Shown: one piece after another, positions 25,465 to 38,941 of the stretch
How positions within the stretch are numbered: the first letter of the stretch is position 1
Layout of the letters: every line of letters begins with the position of its first letter
Source of the DNA: Tenericutes bacterium RIFOXYA12_FULL_35_10
Lineage (GTDB): Bacteria; Bacillota_I; Bacilli_A; Acholeplasmatales; Acholeplasmataceae
Assembly: GCA_001830045.1 (NCBI GenBank)
Contig: MIDA01000020.1
Span: 1-57,954 of the forward strand
Reading direction: 5' to 3'
DNA length: 57,954 nucleotides
Program-made: the position numbers and the translations under genes
Notes under the pieces: generated by a model
The model's database searches: none
What the model was told of the DNA's origin: nothing
What the model saw: only the letters and a program-made list of their open reading frames with translations

Positions 25465-26844
25465 TTAATTAAACTCGATTTGATGTAATTCATCATAATC
25501 AGTGAGATCTACCGTTTGATTGATCTCACCTTTGAGATGTTCATCAAAAAATGAGTTCATGATGTCTTTTTGCATATGAAGAAGGTAATCAGCATCTAAT
25601 GATCCTGTAATACCAAGCATGCCTGTTAATGTTGAAAACATATATGCCATTGAAAAGTCTGAATGTGTTGTCCCATCAATTTGATAGAGTATTGCTTGAT
25701 TGCTATTTAAGATTAACTCTGAGAGATTGTTATTATTTGGTCCAGTTTTCCATGTTTCACTTCTTAGAAAAAGAGATGGTATATTTAGACCTTTTGCTAT
25801 CTCTGTTTGAAGGATGGGTTCAACCCATGCATCAAGACCGAGTAGTGCTTTAATGCGTGTATCATTTAAGGCAACAGCAACATCAGCACCACCGCCAGTT
25901 GAATGTCCAAGTAATCCAATGCGATCTAAATCCAATCTATCATCAAATAAGGCATAAGGCATTGGCCCATCTTTTCCTTCAAGATATTCAATTGTTCTCG
26001 ATATATCCCCTGCATAAGTGTAAACGAGTTGATTTGCTGCATCTAAGAATCCCGGATCTTCACGATCAGGTAATGCTTCTTTATTTTGATAAACCGTTTC
26101 ATCGATAAATGTGGTTGCAACTGAACCATACGTGTGATCAATGGCAACAACAACATAACCGCGACTTGCAAGTTCTTCTGCGAGATCGGTATGAAGTGTC
26201 ATAAATCCACCCCAGCCATGTGAAATAATCACAATCGGGTAAGATTCTTGATCTTGACTTAATGGAACATATCCATAATGATTAGATGGAATATCATTGA
26301 TGTGATCCAAAAGAAACGCAGGTAGTCCCATGTCTTTCGCTAGACTCTCAGTTATAGCACTACTGCCAATCCATTTGCGGGGTTCACTGGAGATAGCATT
26401 TATTGTTGGATACCACACTTTAATCATAAATCTTCGTGTATCCGTTGGATCTTCTGTGTAGAGTTCTAAACGATCTTCATCTTCAATGATGTCATAAAAA
26501 GATCCTATTTTGTATTCTCCTGTTGGATCAGGGATACCTCTCATTGGAAATGCATAAAACAAACCGAGTGAAACTAATATAAGCAAAGATGAAATCGTAA
26601 CATAGATAACTTTCATATAAACCTTTGGTGATTTGATATAAGCAAAGATGAAAAAAAGAACTAAAAAGAAGTAGATGGGTGAGAGTTGCCACGATCTAGG
26701 ACTAATGAAATCATGGATCATGAAACTCGCGATAATGAAAAAAACAGTAATCGTTATCGCCTTTGGATTTACTCTATTTCTGTTTAAAATAACAATCATC
26801 AACGCAAACGACAGCAAAATAATGATGATGCTTAAAATGTTCAT
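25465..26844 (-). CDS. membrane-anchored alpha/beta hydrolase (PAF-acetylhydrolase-like)
   Basis: A 459-residue protein. The first 120 residues hold about four membrane spans, followed by a PAF-acetylhydrolase/dienelactone-hydrolase domain. The nucleophile elbow is GLLGHSTGGGADVA near residue 315; an Asp follows in LLGLDAW and the His is probably in DGTTHSDFS near 395. Such enzymes cleave short-chain or oxidised phospholipid esters, or small esters generally. It starts after AAGGGGAAATT, and a TATAAT hexamer lies at about 26884-26889. The physiological substrate is unknown. Confidence 0.82.
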   Translation of the reverse strand: MNILSIIIILLSFALMIVILNRNRVNPKAITITVFFIIASFMIHDFISPRSWQLSPIYFFLVLFFIFAYIKSPKVYMKVIYVTISSLLILVSLGLFYAFPMRGIPDPTGEYKIGSFYDIIEDEDRLELYTEDPTDTRRFMIKVWYPTINAISSEPRKWIGSSAITESLAKDMGLPAFLLDHINDIPSNHYGYVPLSQDQESYPIVIISHGWGGFMTLHTDLAEELASRGYVVVAIDHTYGSVATTFIDETVYQNKEALPDREDPGFLDAANQLVYTYAGDISRTIEYLEGKDGPMPYALFDDRLDLDRIGLLGHSTGGGADVAVALNDTRIKALLGLDAWVEPILQTEIAKGLNIPSLFLRSETWKTGPNNNNLSELILNSNQAILYQIDGTTHSDFSMAYMFSTLTGMLGITGSLDADYLLHMQKDIMNSFFDEHLKGEINQTVDLTDYDELHQIEFN

Positions 26845-27060: not shown

Positions 27061-29070
27061 TTATTTTAATGTACGTTTTCTTTCAGGTCTCAAAGATAAA
27101 TCAGGATTGTTAAACTTAACAGCTTCTCTGATTTCATTGACATAATCATTTAACTCTTTTTTCTTTGCCTTGTTATAAAGATAATCATCAATGGCAACAG
27201 CAGCTCTATGACCGTCTGAAACAGCTGTGATAATGTCTGGTCCTCTGAAGATATCACCACCGACAAATAACCAATCTAGACCTTTAATTTGACCAGATTC
27301 ATTTGCTTTAATCTTGCCACGTTCATATGTAACTTGATCTTTGAAAGGATCAGAGATGTATGTATAATCAGGTGCTTGACCAACAGAGAAAAAGACTTGT
27401 TCACCTTCTAAAATAGTTTCCTGATCGTGATCAAACACTGGATTAAATCTACCATTTTCATCAAAAACTCTTAAGCATTTATGAACTTTTAATCCCTTGA
27501 TAATGCCATTTTCAATAACGACTTCTTGCGGTCCATAACCTAAGAAACATGAAATGCCCTCTTCGTTACCTTCGATATATTCATCATCGCTACCAGGTAA
27601 AATATCAAGTGATTCTAAAGCGGTTAATTTCACATCAGCTTTACCGTACTTTTGAATCTGAATTCTTGTCACATTACGTGCAACATCAAATGCAACGTCA
27701 CCACCACCGACAACAACAACAGATGGTTTTACGTTTAAGTCATCTAGTTTGAGATTACCTCTTGCAAAGTCTCTTGTAAGTGGTAGGAAATCCATCGCAC
27801 CCATTACATCCTTATGATCAGAACCTGGGATATTAAGCTTTCTTGCTGTGAAAAATCCTGTTCCTAAAAAGACAGCATCATAGTCTTGGTGTAACTTGTC
27901 TAAAGTAATATCTTTTCCAACTTCAGTACTCGTATGAATATTTACGCCAATTTTTTGAATGAAACGAATATCTTTCTCGACGGCTTCATCGGGTAAACGG
28001 TACTCTGGCGCACCATAACTCATTACACCACCAGGCCGTTCGTTTTTCTCAAAAACATCAACATGATAACCTAAACTTCTTAAATAATAAGCTGTACTCA
28101 ATGATGATGGACCAGATCCTGCAATCGCAACTCTTGCATCAATAACTTCAGAGACTGGTTCATTAAAGATTTTTTCATACATCTCATCTGGAGCGCTATC
28201 AATGATGTATCTCTTTAACCAACGGATAGCAATAGCTTCGCCACGAACAGCGATTGCGCATGCTGTTTCACAGTTATGTGTACACACTCTTCCACATACG
28301 CCAGGAAGCGGATTGGTTTCATAAACAATCTTCAAACCACCTTCGATGTCATCTTCCCATATCGCTTTGATATAATCTGGAATATGCATTTGAACTGGAC
28401 AAGATGATGTGCAAACACCACATTCAACACATCTAGCTGCTTCTTGCTTTGCAAACTCTTTTGAATACCCTCTAACAACTTCAATATATGACTTAATACG
28501 TTCACTTGGTTGAATGTGTTCCATGTCAACACGTTTTAAATCAAGTAAATCAGTCACTTCTGTTTTTTGATATCCCAACGCCACGTCTTCATTTTGCCAT
28601 GTTTCTATTGGCATCAGTTTAAACGATTCAGGATTTGAATCACCAAACACATATTCTTTTGTCATTTGTAAGGAGCCTGTTGTACATGTGTCTACACAGA
28701 GTGCACAAAAACAACATCTACCGTAATCGATCACAGGTCTTTGTTGAAGCTTTCCTGCTTCAAGTGGTAAATCATGTCTCGGTACCATTTCGATAGCTTG
28801 TGTTGGACATATATCCTCACAGGTTGCACATCCAATACATTTTTCCCAATCGTTAACATGAAATCCTCTTAAGTTATCAGGCGCAGTTCTTGGACTCGAA
28901 TCTTTTAAATGATTTTTTAATAACAAGTTATTTTGATTTAGATAGTCCGCATTTTTTTGAGTGAATATGCGATTCATCGGATGAGATACAGGTTTTTTAA
29001 ACAGATATTTCAACACTCTAAGTGGCTTAAAAATGCTTGATTTTGGGTATTTATGATCTCTATTTTCCAT
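27061..29070 (-). CDS. NuoI-like ferredoxin domain fused to NfnB/GltD-type NAD(P) oxidoreductase
   Basis: A 669-residue fusion. Residues 1-140 are a NuoI/MbhN-like subunit: a basic N terminus, then two [4Fe-4S] sets (C78-C81-C84-C88 and C119-C122-C125-C129). Residues 200-300 carry the GltD/NfnB iron-sulfur region (C214, C217, C220, C224, then C259, C263, C267, C271). A FAD site follows at GSGPSS (318-323), an NAD(P)H site at GGGDVA (455-460), and the family C-terminal FAD motif VGGDIFRGPDIITAVSDG. It is the last gene, 9 bp after the NuoD-like subunit. I infer that it couples the membrane complex to NAD(P)(H), a job done by separate proteins in Thermococcales. Confidence 0.9.
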   Translation of the reverse strand: MENRDHKYPKSSIFKPLRVLKYLFKKPVSHPMNRIFTQKNADYLNQNNLLLKNHLKDSSPRTAPDNLRGFHVNDWEKCIGCATCEDICPTQAIEMVPRHDLPLEAGKLQQRPVIDYGRCCFCALCVDTCTTGSLQMTKEYVFGDSNPESFKLMPIETWQNEDVALGYQKTEVTDLLDLKRVDMEHIQPSERIKSYIEVVRGYSKEFAKQEAARCVECGVCTSSCPVQMHIPDYIKAIWEDDIEGGLKIVYETNPLPGVCGRVCTHNCETACAIAVRGEAIAIRWLKRYIIDSAPDEMYEKIFNEPVSEVIDARVAIAGSGPSSLSTAYYLRSLGYHVDVFEKNERPGGVMSYGAPEYRLPDEAVEKDIRFIQKIGVNIHTSTEVGKDITLDKLHQDYDAVFLGTGFFTARKLNIPGSDHKDVMGAMDFLPLTRDFARGNLKLDDLNVKPSVVVVGGGDVAFDVARNVTRIQIQKYGKADVKLTALESLDILPGSDDEYIEGNEEGISCFLGYGPQEVVIENGIIKGLKVHKCLRVFDENGRFNPVFDHDQETILEGEQVFFSVGQAPDYTYISDPFKDQVTYERGKIKANESGQIKGLDWLFVGGDIFRGPDIITAVSDGHRAAVAIDDYLYNKAKKKELNDYVNEIREAVKFNNPDLSLRPERKRTLK

Positions 29071-29079
29071 TGTATCCTC

Positions 29080-30186
29080 CTATCTGTCTATCTCTGGGGA
29101 ACAAATCCCCATCGTATCAATCCAAAGAGCAGCATCATCGATGCGCGTACCTGGTAGATACTTTTCAACTCCAAGTAATCCCTGAGGATAACTTGCACCT
29201 CGTACACCTACACGCCATGGACTAGTTCCACCATTGGATACCATGTAATATCCAAATTCACCTCTTGATGATTCAACAGGTGCATAAACATATCCTTTAG
29301 GTACGGTCCATCTCATTGACTGACCTCGTCCCGGTTTAACTCTGACTTCACCTTCAGGCATTTTGTCTAAACATTGTCTAATAATTCTTATTGATTGAAC
29401 AACTTCTTTTATTTTAATGTCTAACCGTGCTCTTGCATCACTATAATTGGATGTTGGAACATCAAATTCAACTTGATCATAACGTGCATATGGCATAACT
29501 TTTCTTAAATCATAGGGCTTATCCGTAGCAGAACGCATACCGATACCTGTTACACCTAATTCCCAAACAACTGATTCGGGTAGCATAATTGTATCTTTAA
29601 TTCTTTTAATAATGGATGCACTATCAATACCTAAATCACGATACTCTCCGATTCTAGATTCTAATCCATCAAGGAAATCTCTAATATCTTTATCAATACC
29701 TTGAGGTAAGTCCATACGAACGCCACCAATTACGATGTATTGGTGATAAACTCTTGCACCTGTAATTTTTTCAAAAATATCTAAAATTAAATTTCGATCC
29801 ACGTGTGCATGATACATGAGTGTATAGTTACCTGTAGGTCCACCTAATCCACCATAAGCCATCAAATGTGCAGAAATACGTGCAAGTTCTAAAATAATCA
29901 TACGAATCCAATGTGCTCTTTCAGGTATTTCCAATTTCAATAATTTCTCAGCAGCACATGCAAATGACATTTCATTAATATCGGGTTCAGGAACGCAAAC
30001 TCTAGGAATTAATGCAATGTTATTAACCCATAATTTTCTTTCCATTTGTTTTTCAAATCCACGATGTAGCATACCGGGAAGTAGATAAGATCTTTTGATG
30101 ATATCACCATCGACAAACAGATGCACAGAAGCATTACCATGCATACCTGGATGTTGAGGTCCTAAAAACAACTTCATCTCTTTCAT
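29080..30186 (-). CDS. NuoD/MbxL-like large subunit lacking the NiFe ligand pairs
   Basis: A 368-residue protein related to the 49-kDa subunit of complex I and group 4 hydrogenase large subunits (GPQHPGMHG start, HRGFEK). Hydrogenases carry CxxC near both ends. Here the first site reads PRVCVPEPD with one Cys (C64) and the last reads DTMGIC with one Cys (C362). That single-Cys pattern fits the MBX/MBS branch rather than H2 chemistry. It overlaps the NuoC-like gene by 4 bp. Its redox role, by analogy to MBS, would be disulfide or sulfane reduction, or simple electron relay. Confidence 0.9.
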   Translation of the reverse strand: MKEMKLFLGPQHPGMHGNASVHLFVDGDIIKRSYLLPGMLHRGFEKQMERKLWVNNIALIPRVCVPEPDINEMSFACAAEKLLKLEIPERAHWIRMIILELARISAHLMAYGGLGGPTGNYTLMYHAHVDRNLILDIFEKITGARVYHQYIVIGGVRMDLPQGIDKDIRDFLDGLESRIGEYRDLGIDSASIIKRIKDTIMLPESVVWELGVTGIGMRSATDKPYDLRKVMPYARYDQVEFDVPTSNYSDARARLDIKIKEVVQSIRIIRQCLDKMPEGEVRVKPGRGQSMRWTVPKGYVYAPVESSRGEFGYYMVSNGGTSPWRVGVRGASYPQGLLGVEKYLPGTRIDDAALWIDTMGICSPEIDR

Positions 30187-30773
30187 GATGATTCACCTCC
30201 GGTTCTTAAGTTTTGTGCTCTTTTTCTCTTTTCAGCTTTCTTTTCTAAGATTTTATTATTCTCATCTTTAACTGAAAATGAATCTGGATAAGTTCTTGAA
30301 GGAAACTTTTTCGCACTATAAGCACTCGGATCAAAATCTTTTCTTAAAGGTGGGATATCATCCCATCTTTCTAAGATTAAAGGTTTTTCATATTCAGGAT
30401 TTCCTGGGAAATGAATACCAAAAAACTCATGAGCTTCTCTTTCATAATACTTAGCTCCTGGAAAAATAGCTAAAACAGAAGGCATCACAGGTTGATTTCG
30501 ATCAATTTTCGTTCTGATTTGAACATATGAAGGTTGTTCCCAATTCATCAGGATGTAGACCACTTCAAATTTCACTTCATTTGGCCAATCTACAGCGCTT
30601 AAATATGAGAGTTGTTTCCACCCCTTAAGTTTTAAAGCGGATAAGACATTAAAAACGTCTTTTTGTTCGAGTTCATAGGCAACTTGATGCTGATCAATCA
30701 CATCTTTTAATAAAGGCTTAGATAGACTCAAGACCACTTGATCTATAACATCTATGTTATTGATGGAACTCAT
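30183..30773 (-). CDS. NuoC/MbxK-like subunit
   Basis: A 196-residue member of the 30-kDa complex I family, with the pattern YEREAHEFFGIHF near residue 110 followed by PPLRKDFDPSAY. It bridges the catalytic subunits of the peripheral arm. I use the ATG at 30773, preceded by GGAGAGGTGG inside the NuoB-like gene; an in-frame TTG six bases earlier is less likely. Confidence 0.88.
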   Translation of the reverse strand: MSSINNIDVIDQVVLSLSKPLLKDVIDQHQVAYELEQKDVFNVLSALKLKGWKQLSYLSAVDWPNEVKFEVVYILMNWEQPSYVQIRTKIDRNQPVMPSVLAIFPGAKYYEREAHEFFGIHFPGNPEYEKPLILERWDDIPPLRKDFDPSAYSAKKFPSRTYPDSFSVKDENNKILEKKAEKRKRAQNLRTGGESS

Positions 30774-31335
30774 CTTCAATCGCCACCTCTCCTAAAACAT
30801 CTTTTTGATTCTTTTTATACCATTCATTATGCTCATGATACTTCTTCCAACCATTAGCAGTCTTATTCTTTATACCTTCCATTAAATCAACAAATCCATT
30901 TAAAACAGATTCTGGGTTAGGCATACATCCTGCAACATATGTATCAACAGGAATGTATTGATCAAGTTGGTTAATGACGGCATGTGAGTCATGATAAATA
31001 CCACCATTGATTGGACAAGAACCTAAAGCTACCACATATTTAGGTTCACTCATTTGTTCATATGTATAAACCAGTCTTCTCAATGTTTTTAATGACAAAT
31101 ACCCGGATACTAATAAAATATCAGCTTGTCTCGGTGTTGCCATAGGTCCCATACCTAAGCGCTCCATGTCATAAGCACTCGTCATTGATGGTGGTAATTC
31201 GATGGCACAGCACCCCGTACAATACATCAGTAACCATAACGAATTTCTTCTAAAATAGTCACCAACTTCCCACCACTTACGATCTATTTCTTCTTTTGTT
31301 AAACTTTGTTTTACCGTATATTTTGTGCTTATCAT
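30757..31335 (-). CDS. NuoB/MbxJ-like iron-sulfur subunit
   Basis: A 192-residue PSST-family subunit. All ligands of the proximal [4Fe-4S] cluster are present: CTGCC at 39-43, the Cys in ALGSCPINGG and the Cys in VAGCMPNPE. It passes electrons between the ferredoxin-like subunit and the NuoD-like interface. It overlaps the next gene by 17 bp. Confidence 0.92.
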   Translation of the reverse strand: MISTKYTVKQSLTKEEIDRKWWEVGDYFRRNSLWLLMYCTGCCAIELPPSMTSAYDMERLGMGPMATPRQADILLVSGYLSLKTLRRLVYTYEQMSEPKYVVALGSCPINGGIYHDSHAVINQLDQYIPVDTYVAGCMPNPESVLNGFVDLMEGIKNKTANGWKKYHEHNEWYKKNQKDVLGEVAIEDEFHQ

Positions 31336-31336
31336 T

Positions 31337-32242
31337 TTATATCACCCATCCAAAGTATATTGCGATAACTGCCTGTGTTACAGCCATGAATAATGGCCAT
31401 TTATAGAAAAATACAACTACTTGATCAATTTTGAAACGTCCATTGACGTTTGAAATAAGATTTGCAATCGTATAAACAATAAAATACTTAATTAAGAATT
31501 CAATAATATTACTTGCTCCACCTAAAAATAAATGAACAAATAAGCTTACTTCGATGAATACCGAAATTTCATGAAGAATAAATAACATGCCTAATTGTTT
31601 TCCACCATATTCGACCATCGGACCTGATGCGATTTCTGCTGGTGCGATATAGGTTTCAAATGGTTTTTTCCCAAGCATACCCATGAGTGCGATAAACCCA
31701 ACAATACCACCAATAGGTAAAGCAATTAAGAAAATGTTGTTTCCTGATTGTTGTTGATACATCATGATTTCAGTCAATGAACTATGACCTGTTAAATTAA
31801 TGATTGTTAAAACAACAATTAAAAATGGAACTTCATAAGCGAGCATCGTTGTCAATGCGCGCATGACACCTATGCTTGCCCATGGATTACCAGAACCGCT
31901 GGCACTCATAGCCATTCCTAACATACCAACTGCAAGAAGATAAACAAAGATAAAGAAGTTATCATAACCTTCAAATGCAACAATATTTGATGTAATGGGC
32001 ATAAACATTGCAGTCGCAATGATGCCACCCAAAGCCATAATGACACCAAAATCAAAGATCCAACCGTGACTGACACTGCGTTTACTCAAAAGTTTGAAGA
32101 TATCTAAAAACTCTTGGTACCATTTTGGACCTTGACGTTTTTGCATACGACCTACGATTTTTCGGTTAATACCACCAATCGATGTCTGCAAGACAAACCC
32201 GAAAAATGCAACTAAAATCCCAATGAGTATATTTAAGATCAT
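31337..32242 (-). CDS. NuoH/MbxM-like membrane subunit
   Basis: A 301-residue protein with about eight spans. The loop RMQKRQGPKWYQEFLDIFKLL and the later KKPFETYIAPAEIASGPMVEYGG are the conserved contact surfaces of the NuoH family. It anchors the peripheral arm to the antiporter-like subunits. It overlaps the upstream gene by 4 bp. Confidence 0.92.
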   Translation of the reverse strand: MILNILIGILVAFFGFVLQTSIGGINRKIVGRMQKRQGPKWYQEFLDIFKLLSKRSVSHGWIFDFGVIMALGGIIATAMFMPITSNIVAFEGYDNFFIFVYLLAVGMLGMAMSASGSGNPWASIGVMRALTTMLAYEVPFLIVVLTIINLTGHSSLTEIMMYQQQSGNNIFLIALPIGGIVGFIALMGMLGKKPFETYIAPAEIASGPMVEYGGKQLGMLFILHEISVFIEVSLFVHLFLGGASNIIEFLIKYFIVYTIANLISNVNGRFKIDQVVVFFYKWPLFMAVTQAVIAIYFGWVI

Positions 32243-34062
32243 AAGACTTCACCCCACAATACAAAGATGATGATTGACATGATTAAGAGTATCACTACAG
32301 ATAAACTGTTGGACATAAACACATATTTTAAAAATGTCCCCAATTCTTTTACCTTTTCTGCCAACGCTTTATAAAACTTCGTCATATAATGACTTTGTTT
32401 TTCATAGAGTCTTTCAAGAGGTGCATAAAAGTCTGTTGAATAATGGAATAAATGTTCATCGTGAACGAAATTCCCTGCTGTATACGTATCCATCAATCCT
32501 ACTTTTCTTGATTTCTTGAGAAGAATAAAAATAATAAATGCAATCACAATACCTACAACAAAGACAAGAGAAATCAATCCTGGATTTAAGGTACCATTAT
32601 TACCGCTAATCGTAAACGTTGTATATGTTATGCCACCAAATCCTAATTCAAGAATGATCTTATTAATAACATCAAAGAAAACTTTCGGAAAAATACCTGT
32701 ATAAATATTTAGACCCATGATGATTGCAGTAGGAATCAAAATCAACAGCGGTGCTTCTTTTACATCTTTGTATTCTCTAAATTCTTGTCCTAAAAATAAA
32801 GCAGCTAAAGGTCTAAACACATATAAAAATGATCCAACGCTACCAAAGAATACAGCGATACCCACAAAGATTAAACCTTGATCAATCACCGCTTGAAAGA
32901 TTAACCATTTCGAGATGAAACCACCCATAGGTGGAATCCCTGCCATCGAAATAATGGCAATCAAATATGCCAAATAAGTGATTGGCATCTTATGAATCAT
33001 ACCACCCATCTCACTAATCTTTGTCGTGTGTGTCACTCTTGCAACAGCTGCAATTGCCATAAAGGCACCCGCACTGGCAAGTGCATGTGCTAAGATGTGA
33101 TATAATCCACCAGCAAAAGCAATACTGTTAAATAAAGAGAATGCAACTAAGATATAACCACCATGACTCATTGAAGAATAAGCAAGTAATTCTTTAGCAT
33201 CATCTGCTTTAATCGCCATTAATGTTCCAAATACGATGGATAATCCACCAATAAGTGCAACCACATAGTGTCCAACGGGTAGTCCTACTGTTTCGAAAAC
33301 CTGTGTTGTTGGGAATATTTTAACTAAAGCTAAAATACCGATGAATGCACCTAACTTAACCAATGCACCCGATAATACAGGTGAAAATGGGTGAGGTGCA
33401 TGACCATGTGCAATGGGTAACCATAGGTGAAGTGGAAATGCACCTAATTTAGCAAATGCAGCAATCAAGAATAAAACAAAAACAAAAGTTCCTGTACTTC
33501 CTGAAAGTGTACTTAAGCTTTCATTGATAATTAATGTTCCAGTTTGCTCAAATGCTAACAAGATACCTAATAATAAAGAAACGCTACCTGCTAAGCTGAA
33601 ACCAAAATATGTGACTGCCGCTTCCCTGCTCTTACCTTGCGGAATTAAAAACATTGTTGTCCAAATGATTAATTCGAAGAATAAAAATAAATTGAGGAAA
33701 TGATCTGTATAAAATGCACCTATAACACCTGCCAAACTGAGTAAAAAGAGCATGTTATATGTGTTTTTATATGTATATTTATCCATAAAGTGTGGGTGAA
33801 AGAAACTTACCATCAAGTAGATAAATATAATAATGATTGCAAAATAAAATCCTAAATAACTTTGAGAAAAACTAATGCCTGGTAAATAATGAACCGTTGT
33901 ATCTAAACCCATATTGAAGCCAAATGCAGCAACAGATACAAATACAAACATAACTGCGAAAATAGTGAAAATAGATCCAATAACTTGTTTAAATCGCGTC
34001 AAAACATATGCAATAAGTGATGATACAACTAAACCTAAAATCAAGAGTTCAATACTAGCCAT
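32239..34062 (-). CDS. second NuoL/M/N-type antiporter subunit (MbxH'-like)
   Basis: About 607 residues with 14 or more spans and a C-terminal extension with a further span. The proton-channel core includes the pattern HLWLPIAHGHAPHPFSPVLS near residue 217 with its conserved Lys downstream. Two antiporter-like subunits and no MbhI homolog is the MBX/MBS arrangement, implying two ion channels. I use the ATG at 34062 because GAGGTGG precedes it; it overlaps the stop of the previous gene. Confidence 0.88.
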   Translation of the reverse strand: MASIELLILGLVVSSLIAYVLTRFKQVIGSIFTIFAVMFVFVSVAAFGFNMGLDTTVHYLPGISFSQSYLGFYFAIIIIFIYLMVSFFHPHFMDKYTYKNTYNMLFLLSLAGVIGAFYTDHFLNLFLFFELIIWTTMFLIPQGKSREAAVTYFGFSLAGSVSLLLGILLAFEQTGTLIINESLSTLSGSTGTFVFVLFLIAAFAKLGAFPLHLWLPIAHGHAPHPFSPVLSGALVKLGAFIGILALVKIFPTTQVFETVGLPVGHYVVALIGGLSIVFGTLMAIKADDAKELLAYSSMSHGGYILVAFSLFNSIAFAGGLYHILAHALASAGAFMAIAAVARVTHTTKISEMGGMIHKMPITYLAYLIAIISMAGIPPMGGFISKWLIFQAVIDQGLIFVGIAVFFGSVGSFLYVFRPLAALFLGQEFREYKDVKEAPLLILIPTAIIMGLNIYTGIFPKVFFDVINKIILELGFGGITYTTFTISGNNGTLNPGLISLVFVVGIVIAFIIFILLKKSRKVGLMDTYTAGNFVHDEHLFHYSTDFYAPLERLYEKQSHYMTKFYKALAEKVKELGTFLKYVFMSNSLSVVILLIMSIIIFVLWGEVL

Positions 34063-35446
34063 GAATGACCACCTCACTTATCTCATCGATGTTATGATCA
34101 AGTTTATTGAGCGGATTTGAATACGTACCAAAGACGAGTAAACTTAAAGCGATGACCACACAAACAACCTTAAAAGCGAGATGATATTTAACTTCAACTT
34201 TTTGATCACCTGGATACCATAACTTAATCAGTAATCTCACCAAATATATACCTTCAATAAGTGATGCAAGTAATATAACAATCATCACAATGAATTGATT
34301 TTGTTGTGCAAACATAGTTAAATAATTAAGTTTAATGATAAAACCGATAAACAAAGGTAGTCCCATAAGCGACAAAGTAGCGATTGTAAATGTCGTTCCT
34401 ACTAAAAGATTATGTGAAAACAATCCTTTTAATGATTCAACTTCATCATCATTTGTTTTTTGTACGGAATGGTTAATCACGAGAAACATCACGGTTTTAC
34501 TTAAAGCATTCGCGATAATTAAGTAAACAGCCCAAATGACTAGTCCATTGACAAAAAGTAAAACAATGATTGAACTTTGTGCAATTGAACTAAAGAGCAA
34601 AATCTCTCTTACTTTCGTTGAGCTAAAAGCCATCAAATCACCAACTAAAATACCTACAGTTAATAAGATGGTTACAACAAGTAACAACGATCCTTCAAAT
34701 TGAAATAAGTTAGTAATCAGTCTGCCGAATACGAATGTTGTTGCTGCCATATAAACGCTTGCAATCATGGGTCCTGATAAACTATTTGAAGTTCCTAAAA
34801 CTCCTTTGACCCAATGATTGAATGGTAAAAGTTTTGCTTCTACACCTAGTCCAATAAACATCATCAAGAAGGGTAAAATCAATTGACGATAATCATTTAA
34901 GGCTTCTATTTCTCTAATCATAATAACGATATTTAGTGTTCCAAACATCGCGTATAAAATGACAATTCCAAACAAAAATAAACTACTTCCTATGGAACCA
35001 TATAGTAAATATTTAAAAGTACTTACTGGTTTTTTATTTGAAGTTGTAATTAAATAAGCCGCAATTCCAGAAATCTCAATAAACACAAATAAATTAAATA
35101 AATCATTTGCTAAAACTAAGCCATTGAGTCCTGCCATCGCGAGTAATAAAATCGTTCCGTATGTTTGATACGATTTAATATTTAAAAGTGCTATTACCAA
35201 GATTAAACCATTGATGACCCATAAGGCAATCACGGCATATACATCAAGAAAAAGTGTTATGCCTAATAGATTGTGGGTCAACTCATCTTCATACCCACCA
35301 ACAAAAATCATGCCCTGCTTTAAAAAGAATAAGATTATCACATTAAACAGTGCAACAAAGATTAAAAGCATCATTTGATATTTCTTCACTAAGATGGAAA
35401 GGAATGCGACCAATAAAGGAATAACGATTAATAGAATAATGTTCAT
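34055..35446 (-). CDS. mrpD: MrpD/NuoN-type antiporter subunit (MbxH-like)
   Basis: A 463-residue polytopic protein of the proton_antipo_M family, with the conserved central Lys/Glu helices (LMMFIGLGVEAKLLPFNHWVKGVLG). In Mrp antiporters MrpD carries one ion path. It overlaps the MrpC-like gene by 4 bp. Confidence 0.88.
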   Translation of the reverse strand: MNIILLIVIPLLVAFLSILVKKYQMMLLIFVALFNVIILFFLKQGMIFVGGYEDELTHNLLGITLFLDVYAVIALWVINGLILVIALLNIKSYQTYGTILLLAMAGLNGLVLANDLFNLFVFIEISGIAAYLITTSNKKPVSTFKYLLYGSIGSSLFLFGIVILYAMFGTLNIVIMIREIEALNDYRQLILPFLMMFIGLGVEAKLLPFNHWVKGVLGTSNSLSGPMIASVYMAATTFVFGRLITNLFQFEGSLLLVVTILLTVGILVGDLMAFSSTKVREILLFSSIAQSSIIVLLFVNGLVIWAVYLIIANALSKTVMFLVINHSVQKTNDDEVESLKGLFSHNLLVGTTFTIATLSLMGLPLFIGFIIKLNYLTMFAQQNQFIVMIVILLASLIEGIYLVRLLIKLWYPGDQKVEVKYHLAFKVVCVVIALSLLVFGTYSNPLNKLDHNIDEISEVVIHG

Positions 35447-35778
35447 TGGATTGCCTCCAATTCATCTAACTCTAAGGTGTGATATGTATCAAAGATGTTT
35501 TTAGATAGTGCTAAACCTAATGCAGTTGTTCCAACACCAATAACGATTGCTGTTAAAACAAGTGCTTGTGGAATGGGGTCTACATAAATTAAACCCAGAT
35601 CATCAACAGAAGATACGATCGGAGCGATCCCATCTGAAACAAAACCAATGCTAATAATGAATAAAAATAAGCCAATTTCCATCACATTTAAGGAAACAAT
35701 CAGTTTGATGATGTTTTTATTGACAAACAGTCCATAAAAACCAAGTGCAAACAGAAAGATTGCTGCATATTGTATCAT
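35443..35778 (-). CDS. mrpC: MrpC/NuoK-like subunit
   Basis: A 111-residue protein with three spans and the NuoK-family pattern KLIVSLNVMEIGLFLF plus PIPQALVLTAIVIGVGTTAL, which includes the conserved membrane Glu. It links the MrpD-type channels. Four-base overlaps join it to both neighbours. Confidence 0.9.
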   Translation of the reverse strand: MIQYAAIFLFALGFYGLFVNKNIIKLIVSLNVMEIGLFLFIISIGFVSDGIAPIVSSVDDLGLIYVDPIPQALVLTAIVIGVGTTALGLALSKNIFDTYHTLELDELEAIQ

Positions 35779-36485
35779 GACTTTTCCTCCTCTGTTAAAA
35801 ACTGATCAATCACACTAGCGATTTCACTACCAACTTTAAGTCCTATAAGAACATAAATGATAGGTATAATACCTGCACTCAATAAGTTACCGATCACACC
35901 TGTGTTTAAGAAGTTTTCAAAATATGCTGTTCCAATCACAAGCCCAACTAAACCGATCACAACGATTAAGCTACCTGCTGCACTTTCAAGTATTTTGAAC
36001 CCTTGAATTTTACTTCTAAACTGATCATCCGCTAAGTATAACAATAAGACTGAACTTGCAATCATTGCTCCACCAGGAAAACCTCCACCAGGACTTAAAT
36101 GACCATGCAAAATCATGTAAAAACTTACAACTAAAATGATTGAAACGAGGATGTAAGAAGCAGTTTTTAACATGAAATTAGGTTTAAAAGCTAATTCCAT
36201 ACGCTTTTTATGTTTAAAATCAAGAATTAAAGCTACACCAAGTGAACTAACGAAAAGGACGGTAACTTCACCAAGCGTATCGAACGCTCTAAATCCTAAA
36301 ACAACTGATGTTACGATATTTGCTGAACCTACAAGTTCTGCAATTGCACTTTGGAAATATGAACCAGATATTCTTTCTGCAAGATTGACATCACCATAAG
36401 CGGGAAAACCGCTCATGTTTCTCAATGCAAGTATAATCATTAAACCAAAGGCAAAAGCAACGATTAAACCAAAGAATTTTTTCAT
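35775..36485 (-). CDS. mrpB: MrpB-like subunit fused to an MbhE-like N-terminal part
   Basis: A 236-residue membrane protein. The C-terminal about 140 residues are the MnhB family (HGHLSPGGGFPGGAMIASSVLLLYL). The first about 95 residues match the short MbhE-type segment (DTLGEVTVLFVSSLGVALIL). In Pyrococcus MBH these are two genes; here they are one. It overlaps both neighbours by 4 bp. Confidence 0.85.
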   Translation of the reverse strand: MKKFFGLIVAFAFGLMIILALRNMSGFPAYGDVNLAERISGSYFQSAIAELVGSANIVTSVVLGFRAFDTLGEVTVLFVSSLGVALILDFKHKKRMELAFKPNFMLKTASYILVSIILVVSFYMILHGHLSPGGGFPGGAMIASSVLLLYLADDQFRSKIQGFKILESAAGSLIVVIGLVGLVIGTAYFENFLNTGVIGNLLSAGIIPIIYVLIGLKVGSEIASVIDQFLTEEEKS

Positions 36486-36733
36486 TTCGCATCCCTCCTT
36501 TTAATTGAAAGCAATACGAAGATAAATAAAGCAGTAACTAAGCCACTACCAATCACCGCTTCAGTAATGGCTACATCTGGTGCCTTCATTAAAATGAACG
36601 CAACCACCGCAAGCATGCTGAGTGCAGATAGATAGATAACAGAGTGGATGAGTTTTTTAGCGTTTATTGCTAAAAAAGCAATGACAAGTATTAAAACAGA
36701 TATGATGAGAGAGAAAACATCGAAAAATGTCAT
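36482..36733 (-). CDS. MbhD-like (DUF4040) membrane subunit
   Basis: An 83-residue protein with three spans, matching the MbhD/MrpA C-terminal module (KLIHSVIYLSALSMLAVVAFI, then DVAITEAVIGSGLVTALF). In Mrp antiporters this piece is part of MrpA. Its Glu in the TEAVIG helix is the conserved membrane acid. Confidence 0.87.
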   Translation of the reverse strand: MTFFDVFSLIISVLILVIAFLAINAKKLIHSVIYLSALSMLAVVAFILMKAPDVAITEAVIGSGLVTALFIFVLLSIKRRDAK

Positions 36734-37062
36734 TGTTTTTCACCCCTACCTTTTAAATCATCTTTTAATAACGTATCTTGTAGTGTTTTTGATTTGTAAA
36801 TAGCTTTTGCTATTGTTGAAGATCCTACAGGATTGGATAATGCAATTAAAATAATCAGGATAATCAGTTTAAATATCCAATTTGGATGGGATTCAATACT
36901 TGCAAAAATAACACCTAAAATCATTGAAAATGATCCAAGCGTTGTTGCTTTTGTTCCCGCTTGAATACGATTGAATGTATCAGGCATTCTAAGAACACCA
37001 AGCCCACCTAAAAGATAGAAGAGAGCACCTATCATTAAGAATACATAACTAGCGATGGTCAT
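36730..37062 (-). CDS. mrpG: MrpG-like subunit
   Basis: A 110-residue, three-span MnhG family protein (GALFYLLGGLGVLRMPDTFNRIQAGTK). The ATG at 37062 follows GGAGGGT inside the mrpF gene; a longer frame to 37098 has no such site. Confidence 0.9.
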   Translation of the reverse strand: MTIASYVFLMIGALFYLLGGLGVLRMPDTFNRIQAGTKATTLGSFSMILGVIFASIESHPNWIFKLIILIILIALSNPVGSSTIAKAIYKSKTLQDTLLKDDLKGRGEKQ

Positions 37063-37318
37063 TGTTTTTACCCTCCACATATCTTGCAAATACGACAATC
37101 TCTAGAAACGCTAATATGCCATAAACAATAGCGATATCTAAATAAAGAATGCTATTTTGCAGTAAAGCAATAAACACAATGATACCAATCACGATCATGT
37201 TAAACGTGTCTAATGCCACAATACGATCAGCCAATTTGGGTCCAATAACTAATCTGATAATCACAAGCAATAAACCTAAAATAAGTAAGCTAAAGACGAT
37301 GTAATCTAGCCATATCAT
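37049..37318 (-). CDS. mrpF: MrpF-like subunit
   Basis: An 89-residue, three-span MnhF family protein with the signature RLVIGPKLADRIVALDTFN. The Asp residues in that loop are conserved in the family. It overlaps mrpE by 4 bp and mrpG by 14 bp. Confidence 0.9.
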   Translation of the reverse strand: MIWLDYIVFSLLILGLLLVIIRLVIGPKLADRIVALDTFNMIVIGIIVFIALLQNSILYLDIAIVYGILAFLEIVVFARYVEGKNNDHR

Positions 37319-37788
37319 TTGAAGATACCTCCTAACAATTTTTCGAAAGGTTCTGATAAATCATCAGGATTTTCAAACTTAGTGATATCGATTGCATGAA
37401 CATAGATGGTGTCATCATCTACATCAATCGATAATGTACCTGGTGTTAGTGTGATTGAGTTTGCTAAAGCTAATTTACCAACATCACTCTTTATGTTCGT
37501 TTTAACTTTTAAAATACCTGGATTAACAGGTATTTTAATACTCAATACTCTTCTTGCTACATCTAGGTTCGCTAAGATCAATTTCCAAATAAATACGGGT
37601 ATGTAGATAACTACAAACTTAATCAATTTAATAGGAAAATTCCATTTGACCTTGAAATCAAGTTTTCTTGCAATGAGTGCGGTAATTATAGCACTGACAA
37701 GAGAACCTAAGATGACTTCTTCTACTGTAAATCCAGCCAAAAAAAGATACAACAGTAGAAGGGCTAAAAATGCCGTTGCATATTTCAT
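37315..37788 (-). CDS. mrpE: MrpE-like subunit, first gene of the MBX-like operon
   Basis: A 157-residue MnhE family protein: two or three N-terminal spans and a cytoplasmic tail with LALANSITLTPGTLSIDVDDD. It starts after TAGGAGGAAG and is preceded by a structured leader with an intrinsic terminator, so its expression, and that of the whole operon, is probably set by that leader. Confidence 0.9.
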   Translation of the reverse strand: MKYATAFLALLLLYLFLAGFTVEEVILGSLVSAIITALIARKLDFKVKWNFPIKLIKFVVIYIPVFIWKLILANLDVARRVLSIKIPVNPGILKVKTNIKSDVGKLALANSITLTPGTLSIDVDDDTIYVHAIDITKFENPDDLSEPFEKLLGGIFK

Positions 37789-38074: not shown

Positions 38075-38941
38075 TCATTTTAAAACACAAAATTGTACTG
38101 CATAAGATTGATGAGTTTGTATTCCCCAAAGCAACCATGTTTTCATAGCACTTTGAAAATGCTCAGCTAGATCTGCTAGTCCGAAATCTCCGAGTCCAAT
38201 ACCATATTGACTGAGATAAGCTTGATACGTATCATTCATCCATTTTTGATTCGAAATATGTTTTTTTACATTCAACGAAAAATCATTATCCGTCAGTAAA
38301 AAAATATCAGATGCAACAAAAATAATACCTTCTGGATTTAATAAGTTCATTATTTCTTGATTAAAATGGTGAAGTATTTTTGCCATTTGTTGTAGGATAA
38401 ATGAAAGTATATCATCTTTTCTTGATGGCGATAGTCCATATGGGATCATTGTGTCTAGTTTATACTCACATGCTCTATATAAAAGTTGCGTATAGATGGG
38501 GGAGATATAAATGACATCAAACTTCGTCATCAATTTTTTTGAAAAATGATGATCAAGTATATGGTCTATTTCTTGTAATACGTCATATTCAATTTGTTCT
38601 TTTGATTTATGTATCAGGGCATTAAAAAAAGCATGGTTGAAATACACATCGTCCAACCCAAGGTAATCCATTTGAATCACCTTGATTTTAGATTGTTGTT
38701 TTTCAACTAATGCTTGATTCATGCTTTCTTGGTCGATATCTGTTAAATAAATCTCATGAAACTTTTCACAAAAATAATCTAGCGGGATATCTGAAAGATT
38801 TCCTGCACCAATGATTAAAATTGTGTTAAACATAGCTTTATGGTTTAAAGCATCTTTCATTAATGATGATGTTTTATGTATGTAATCTTCTTGATGAAGA
38901 TTTCTGTGTGATTGGTTAAGTTGATGATAAAAGTGATTCAT
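38075..38941 (-). CDS. SAM-dependent methyltransferase-like protein, unknown substrate
   Basis: A 288-residue soluble protein. A class-I methyltransferase nucleotide site is visible in ILIIGAGNLSDIPL near residue 45 and an acidic strand end in YLTDIDQES near 68, followed by FDVIYISP. The charged N terminus (HRNLHQEDYIHK) and the C-terminal half match no family I recognise. It stands between the MBX-like operon promoter and a flavoprotein gene, with no clear functional link. Confidence 0.65.
   Translation of the reverse strand: MNHFYHQLNQSHRNLHQEDYIHKTSSLMKDALNHKAMFNTILIIGAGNLSDIPLDYFCEKFHEIYLTDIDQESMNQALVEKQQSKIKVIQMDYLGLDDVYFNHAFFNALIHKSKEQIEYDVLQEIDHILDHHFSKKLMTKFDVIYISPIYTQLLYRACEYKLDTMIPYGLSPSRKDDILSFILQQMAKILHHFNQEIMNLLNPEGIIFVASDIFLLTDNDFSLNVKKHISNQKWMNDTYQAYLSQYGIGLGDFGLADLAEHFQSAMKTWLLWGIQTHQSYAVQFCVLK

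Follow-up and report, generated by a model that had tools for sequence, protein, structure and literature searches.

The series from the membrane-bound hydrogenase (MBH) through the membrane-bound sulfane reductase (MBS) to respiratory complex I is a standard model of the evolution of respiration (PMC7684303, PMC10451490). In the MBS of Pyrococcus furiosus, the NuoB cluster at which polysulfide is reduced is described as having no more than three Cys ligands (PMC7684303), and the P. furiosus mbx gene table lists two antiporter-like subunits (PMC2678158). In Thermotoga maritima, MBX is described as a 13-subunit putative membrane-bound sulfur oxidoreductase, and its mbxA is up 4.36-fold with S0 (PMC9431562); a twelve-gene mbx operon is described elsewhere as adjoining mal1, and as the table of that account has a TM1217-like open reading frame (ORF) beside mal1 in T. 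petrophila, I take the edge of the operon as tentative (PMC2246101). Here I analyse a bacterial gene cluster of this kind, located at positions 27061-37788 of a 57,954-nucleotide stretch (the window; contig MIDA01000020.1) of Tenericutes bacterium RIFOXYA12_FULL_35_10, in which the last gene fuses a NuoI-like ferredoxin subunit to an NfnB-type flavoprotein. Throughout, MBX is taken to be the former name of the P. furiosus MBS.

I give an even chance to the reading that this cluster encodes an NADH-fed, respiratory ion pump of the MBX type, belonging to a bacterial branch of the archaeal MBX/MBS complexes, in which the NfnB half of the fusion replaces NuoEFG and the acceptor is most likely sulfane sulfur. 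The NfnB-like flavoprotein, joined to the NuoI-like subunit, would fill the place of NuoEFG in complex I; NADH would reduce the FAD of the fusion. The electrons would then reach the NuoB cluster over four [4Fe-4S] clusters, two of NfnB type and two of NuoI type, and finally a small, hydrophobic acceptor bound in the cavity of NuoB, NuoD and NuoH, for which sulfane sulfur, as polysulfide or persulfide, is the likeliest candidate. Turnover would drive ions, probably Na+, through NuoH and the antiporter-like and Mrp subunits and so feed the ATP synthase, and ferredoxin may also enter at one of the clusters. Assembly as one complex, NADH as substrate, the acceptor, the ion and the direction are what I infer from here on.

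The gene cluster and its flavoprotein fusion

Gene content, order, homology, conservation and co-occurrence of the cluster are direct observations. The fusion (27061-29070, minus strand, 669 aa) is matched by NCBIfam NuoI models at about residues 65-145, followed by the NfnB-type two-cluster domain at 192-294 (Pfam/NCBIfam) and the FAD/NAD(P) part, Pyr_redox_2, at 313-614, with an FAD motif at 318-323 and an NAD(P) motif at 455-460. Its Cys residues form two NuoI-type sites (C78/81/84/88 and C119/122/125/129) and two NfnB-type sites (C214/217/220/224 and C259/263/267/271). The first-pass annotation, made from the sequence of the window, had named this fusion, both motifs and four potential iron-sulfur sites, and its coordinates for the two motifs are exact. 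I compared the cluster with 34 other loci, including genomes from two family searches; 23 loci came from a homology search of genome contigs, among them L024, a plain NfnB-like row. All 16 site Cys are conserved in every fusion with a residue there (alignment of 31 rows), and the lone non-Cys, at the C84 position, belongs to L024 and not to a fusion.

Residues 56-634 align to positions 33-609 of the 611-position NCBIfam family PRK13984 (NF010590, 'putative oxidoreductase'), which is near full-length, at 820.3 bits, below the curated cut-off of 946 bits. PRK13984 is the best family for all six fusions that were scanned (that of the window and five others), each below the cut-off, and among 14 control genomes only T. 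maritima has a member, above the cut-off. By these assignments the fusion is a known, named protein architecture spread over several groups, and it is not unique; the gene order, too, recurs in other bacterial groups. The T. maritima fusion gene is presumably TM1217; the likeness to the window was established at the level of the genome. No description of an MBX complex fused to NfnB was found in the open-access literature searched, so that within this search the fusion still counts as uncharacterised.

An AlphaFold model of the fusion, with a mean predicted local distance difference test (pLDDT) of 75 and low values at residues 1-37, 56-67 and 139-161, is closest to NfnL and GltD (the top six structure matches have template modelling (TM) scores of 0.87-0.89 on the target). 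The fold and the two-cluster N-terminal domain are thus shared with the NfnB/NfnL of NfnAB (PDB 4ylf, 5jca); however, NfnAB has its partner NfnA beside NfnB, and a Pfam/NCBIfam scan gave no NfnA in the cluster of the window. A sequencing or assembly join can be excluded, as the same single ORF, 91% identical, is present in the complete chromosome CP017948.1 and in many loci.

As the C-terminal part of the fusion matches GltD/NfnB models, the last gene could in principle be an ordinary glutamate-synthase small subunit that lies beside an MBX operon by chance. I regard this as very improbable, because the NuoI-like part is fused in frame and conserved, of the 30 loci with both genes, 29 have NuoD immediately before the fusion, a separate NfnB exists in the genome, and over 61 genomes of a close sample fusion and NuoH have an identical distribution, both being present in the same 8 and neither in the other 53 (fusion searched at E 1e-100). 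In L015 the reading frames of NuoD and the fusion are separated by 366 nt. Four loci are without NuoD: L005, L009 and L027 begin at the fusion, and L014, the exception to this argument, has 2.7 kb of other genes upstream. The fusion of L014 (L014:2778-4568) is from a Thiomargarita metagenome-assembled genome (MAG), and by eye the large ORF upstream of it is kinase/formylglycine-enzyme-like.

All thirteen ORFs at 27061-37788 were confirmed on the minus strand of the window. In the direction of transcription, Pfam and NCBIfam assign them to MrpE (37315-37788, 157 aa), MrpF (37049-37318, 89 aa), MrpG (36730-37098, 122 aa), an MbhD-like protein (36482-36733, 83 aa), a protein with MbhE and MnhB (MrpB) domains (35775-36485, 236 aa), an MrpC/NuoK-like protein (35443-35778, 111 aa), a first and a second antiporter-like subunit (MrpD1, 34055-35446, 463 aa; MrpD2, 32239-34077, 612 aa), a NuoH/MbsM-like membrane subunit (31337-32242, 301 aa), a NuoB/MbsJ-like subunit (30757-31335, 192 aa), a NuoC-like subunit (30183-30779, 198 aa), a NuoD/MbsL-like subunit (29080-30186, 368 aa) and, last, the fusion. 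The proposal of thirteen genes in MBX/MBS order is borne out by these assignments. Of the proposed Mrp E-F-G-B-C-D module, all is present, but its 'B' consists of two genes, the MbhD-like and the MbhE/MnhB one; and the genes, said to overlap throughout, do so at 10 of 12 junctions (by 4-50 nt), with spacers of 1 and 9 nt at the remaining two.

In one cluster, then, an Mrp E-F-G-D-B/E-C-D-D' module is followed by NuoH-B-C-D-I, as expected of an MBX/MBS-type complex, and the presence of two antiporter-like subunits is common to this cluster and P. furiosus mbx. The MbhD/MbhE/Mrp membrane module is also shared with MBH and other group 4 [NiFe] hydrogenases. With complex I, the cluster has NuoB, C, D, H, I and the antiporter-like core in common, as well as NADH as predicted donor; however, the Pfam/NCBIfam scan detected no NuoEFG module within the cluster, which sets it apart from complex I. 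Where the window has the flavoprotein fusion, P. furiosus MBS has the short NuoI-like MbsN (a chain of 208 aa).

Donor, acceptor and ion

The NfnB half is read as an NADH module because it is expected at the outer end of the wire of clusters, where NuoEFG sits. In Rossmann folds, an acid after the second beta-strand favours NADH and an Arg favours NADPH. At this position in the second Rossmann fold the fusion of the window reads LES, with the Glu at E486, whereas both NfnB rows, one of them from the genome of the window, read YRR. Glu is found in 31 of the 33 fusions with a residue there (two rows have a gap). As Glu replaces the Arg of the NfnB rows, and with it the NADP(H)-binding Arg of NfnAB, the fusion is predicted to use NAD(H) rather than NADP(H), which argues against NADPH, the partner first suggested.

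The proposal that accompanied this suggestion, and was once made for P. furiosus MBX, is an ion-pumping ferredoxin:NAD(P)+ oxidoreductase. Electron exchange with both ferredoxin and NAD(P) is conceivable for the NfnB half, and for mbx such a role was published earlier (PMC3608648, PMC2678158, PMC6349859), although more recent work treats the P. furiosus complex as a sulfane reductase, MBS (PMC7684303). The genome of the window (2.05 Mb in 106 contigs, 94% complete) contains RnfC (E 7.5e-95), with RnfD- and RnfG-like ORFs beside rnfC by eye, and a separate NfnB (544 bits, above the cut-off) that is adjoined at G000:C41 by an ORF judged NfnA-like by eye. With these genes present, neither ferredoxin:NAD+ nor Nfn activity appears to be missing. 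An [FeFe]-hydrogenase is encoded as well, so by homology Rnf, Nfn and hydrogenase chemistry are already provided for apart from the cluster. Ferredoxin and NAD(P) would, moreover, both dock on the far side of NuoB/NuoD, so that the circuit would bypass the coupling site, whereas it is the arrival of electrons at just this site that is linked to pumping in complex I and in enzymes of the MBH type. I therefore think the ferredoxin:NAD(P)+ reading unlikely. The related idea that the complex replaces Rnf was rejected, as RnfC is present in the genome of the window and in each of the 8 genomes, out of 61, that have the fusion.

The subunits around the coupling site point to MBS. Among solved structures, P. 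furiosus MBS (6u8y) is the closest relative of NuoD (263 bits, versus 223 for complex I and 111 for MBH), of NuoB (220 bits, versus 131 for NDH and 102 for MBH) and of NuoH (186 bits, versus 70 for MBH). MBH has four [NiFe] Cys ligands, whereas NuoD of the window retains only two, C64 and C362, which correspond to C85 and C385 of MbsL (residue roles are taken from PMC7684303) and are the same two that MBS keeps. They are conserved in 29 of 30 and 30 of 31 rows, respectively, one Bacteroidales row (L022) being without both. In NuoB, C39, C42 and C107 are Cys in all 23 rows with a residue there, and C137 in all 24. By gene order, the two retained [NiFe] Cys and the closeness of the catalytic and anchor subunits, I classify the cluster as an MBX/MBS-type complex, and the proposal of such a complex with a built-in NfnB-type flavoprotein is thereby supported.

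The site is not purely that of MBS, however. Position 43 of NuoB is Cys in 14 rows (the window and 13 others) and Gly, as in MBS, in 9 (n = 23), so that the window reads CTGCC where MBS reads CTGCG, and C43 aligns with the tandem Cys of complex I. Because of this extra Cys I would not expect an open, MBS-like iron site here, and the cluster is not classed as MBS, since by its sequence NuoB lacks the three-Cys feature that defines MBS; the branch of the window is probably MBS-like overall, with a closed, complex I-like NuoB cluster. NuoD, unlike MBS, keeps a His (H16) at the position of H38 of Nqo4, where 19 of 30 rows have His, 10 have Glu and one has Val.

The tandem Cys C42/C43 and H16 would suit an NADH:quinone oxidoreductase, in effect complex I with its NADH module exchanged, which is how Izemoplasma papers annotate their 'complex I'. 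Complex I and cytochrome bd oxidase are both reported from relatives (PMC7761423, PMC8397711), and the one genome of 21 with cytochrome bd, G009, also has the cluster. I nevertheless consider it improbable. The quinone Tyr87 of Nqo4 is replaced by Val (V65 in the window) in all 30 NuoD rows, and NuoD and NuoB are both closer to MBS. Complex I uses quinone; however, no UbiA-family protein was found in the genome of the window or 20 relatives (0/21, with 14 of 14 controls positive), UbiA being the only quinone-synthesis family tested and a scavenged quinone being possible. Cytochrome bd is absent from the genome of the window and found in one of the 21 genomes, G009. Quinone is thus an unlikely acceptor.

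Sulfane sulfur is favoured because of the kinship with MBS, the induction by S0 in T. maritima, the absence of UbiA and the presence of CoA-disulfide-reductase genes near the cluster. A search of all loci and the window, with flanks of different lengths, gave four genes of the CoA-disulfide-reductase family (NSR-like): 90 nt downstream of the cluster on the same strand (L067:2040-3380), one ORF away from it (L065:16244-17668), near it with three ORFs between (L011:8539-9864), and upstream of it (L022:27-1376), the last more distant in sequence and below the family cut-offs. As the flanks differed and three of these four loci are close kin, the linkage represents at best two independent events. 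In the genome of the window a CoA-disulfide-reductase-like protein with a rhodanese domain, below the family cut-off, is encoded unlinked on another contig. As a partner that tracks the cluster in near relatives, this reductase was rejected, since the family occurs in 4 of 5 genomes with the cluster and 6 of 16 without it (4 of 8 from the genus and 2 of 8 from the order).

This lack of clear tracking is one of several points that count against an NADH-fed sulfane reductase. The three Bacilli loci with the linked reductase belong to one subclade and may reflect one event. The transfer of electrons from NADH to polysulfide yields little energy, judged by the redox potentials, so that NADH by itself would barely suffice for pumping. 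The extra C43 would close the open iron site that MBS uses, the quinone-site His of complex I is kept in the 19 rows mentioned above, including the window, and G009 combines the cluster with cytochrome bd. At the Glu486 position, L010 has Lys and L015 has Gln. Finally, thiosulfate promoted growth of Xianfuyuplasma without, in that account, clear induction of known sulfur genes (PMC8397711), a point that bears on the cluster only if this strain carries it.

With regard to the ion, the c subunit of the ATP synthase in the genome of the window has, by eye, Na+-type residues, which I take to be the Na+ signature, so that the enzyme is apparently Na+-type.

Distribution and direction

Sixteen loci, counted over the 34 and the window, contain 12 or 13 of the 13 cluster genes. 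The titles of their records assign the loci to Mycoplasmatota/Bacilli, Clostridia, Bacteroidales and Proteobacteria, so that the search for the same domain order beside MBX genes, proposed with the first-pass annotation, yielded it in three groups besides that of the window. Within a sample of 392 genomes of the phylum, the fusion is found in 7 (E 1e-150). In a tree, the fusion of the window groups with that of Tenericutes MO-XQ and copies from other families, while six genomes of its own genus have copies that branch elsewhere (L025-L029, L031); a seventh such genome, G016, has a partial copy that was left out. This position suggests transfer, or an old duplication followed by loss. Phage or plasmid transfer was rejected as the route, as no relative was found in plasmids at E 1e-60 and none was confirmed in viral contigs by a pattern-based search.

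The proteobacterial loci include MAGs titled Gallionellaceae, Hydrogenophilales, Thiohalobacter and Thiomargarita, names that belong in the context of autotrophic sulfur oxidation. The complex could run in reverse there, an ion gradient driving electrons from sulfide or sulfane sulfur to NAD+ or ferredoxin. A putative Mrp-Mbx complex is described as co-expressed with genes of the reductive tricarboxylic acid cycle in the Riftia symbiont (PMC11636981), which would agree with such a role, and reversal is plausible most of all for the copies in autotrophic sulfur oxidisers. For the complex in general I give it a low probability, as nothing found in the genome of the window calls for reversal, and direction is not a property that sequence reveals.

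Several other neighbours were seen in these loci. In two loci from Proteobacteria, the fusion is immediately followed by a rubrerythrin-family gene (PF02915; L014:4575-5075, L019:11797-12312). In one from Clostridia, mrpE is immediately preceded by the gene of a small ArsR-type regulator (PF01022) with several Cys (L007:882-1160); P. furiosus mbx is reportedly controlled by the ArsR-type SurR. In the window, a PAF-acetylhydrolase-like protein (PF03403) is encoded at 25465-26844 on the minus strand, with a homologue near the MO-XQ cluster (L002:13577-14983).

A linked methyltransferase-like gene

The next gene upstream of the cluster, at 38075-38941 on the same minus strand and 286 nt before mrpE, encodes an unnamed methyltransferase-like protein of 288 aa. 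Homologues are found in 7 of the 8 fusion-bearing genomes and in none of the 53 without the fusion, in a search of the 61 genomes with a single sequence; as copies are only 26-33% identical, a diverged one could be missed by such a search. The eighth fusion genome, G013, has no homologue in what is available, its contig ending 146 nt past the fusion and the 7.9 kb upstream being without one; G012 carries the gene on a different contig, and G018 has it in two frames.

A homologue is located upstream of mrpE in L002, L003 and L007 (the last from Clostridia and truncated where the locus ends), and also in all six further fusion genomes examined from the phylum sample (L064-L069, of which L069 is the same contig as L003). 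With frames measured from stop to stop, it overlaps mrpE in L064, L066 and L067, whereas in L065 18 nt separate the two, and in L068 they are divergent. Five further members of the genus of the window (L025, L026, L027, L029, L032) have the homologue downstream of the fusion instead. No homologue was detected in the available flanks of the proteobacterial and Bacteroidales loci, of which the upstream ones are short.

For this protein, searches of NCBIfam (to E 1) and PHROGs (to E 0.1) gave no match, and the PDB gave no sequence match better than E 0.66; in Pfam it matches only PF08241, below the cut-off (E 0.0024). A model from a four-sequence alignment (pLDDT 78) shows a weak match to the class-I methyltransferase fold (best E 2e-6, TM approximately 0.3-0.5 among the matches listed). 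In mitochondria, NDUFAF7 modifies the NuoD homologue, and the putative methyltransferase may likewise modify a subunit, or act on a thiol. On its co-occurrence I propose this newly noticed gene, tightly tied to the cluster, as its fourteenth.

Taken further, and more tentatively than the NADH-fed pump itself, these clusters could form a branch of their own in the complex I superfamily. Its members would be Na+-pumping reductases, fed by NADH, of a non-quinone acceptor such as sulfane sulfur, with an NfnB-type flavoprotein for NuoEFG and a dedicated methyltransferase-like fourteenth protein with a part in maturation of the complex or in the making or handling of its substrate. In the Bacilli and Clostridia the site would have been rebuilt towards complex I (CTGCC in NuoB, His in NuoD), as an intermediate between a sulfur and a quinone reductase. 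This possibility I would still place below even odds.

For specialists, the points of note are the NADH-type site, the mixture of MBS and complex I residues and the linked methyltransferase-like gene, which is a concrete new handle on the cluster. Being bacterial, present in several groups, equipped with its own predicted NADH module, without the quinone Tyr and with mixed site residues, the cluster is a natural test object for the MBH-MBS-complex I model. An apparently quinone-free lineage near the wall-less bacteria would thereby gain a possible second ion pump beside Rnf.

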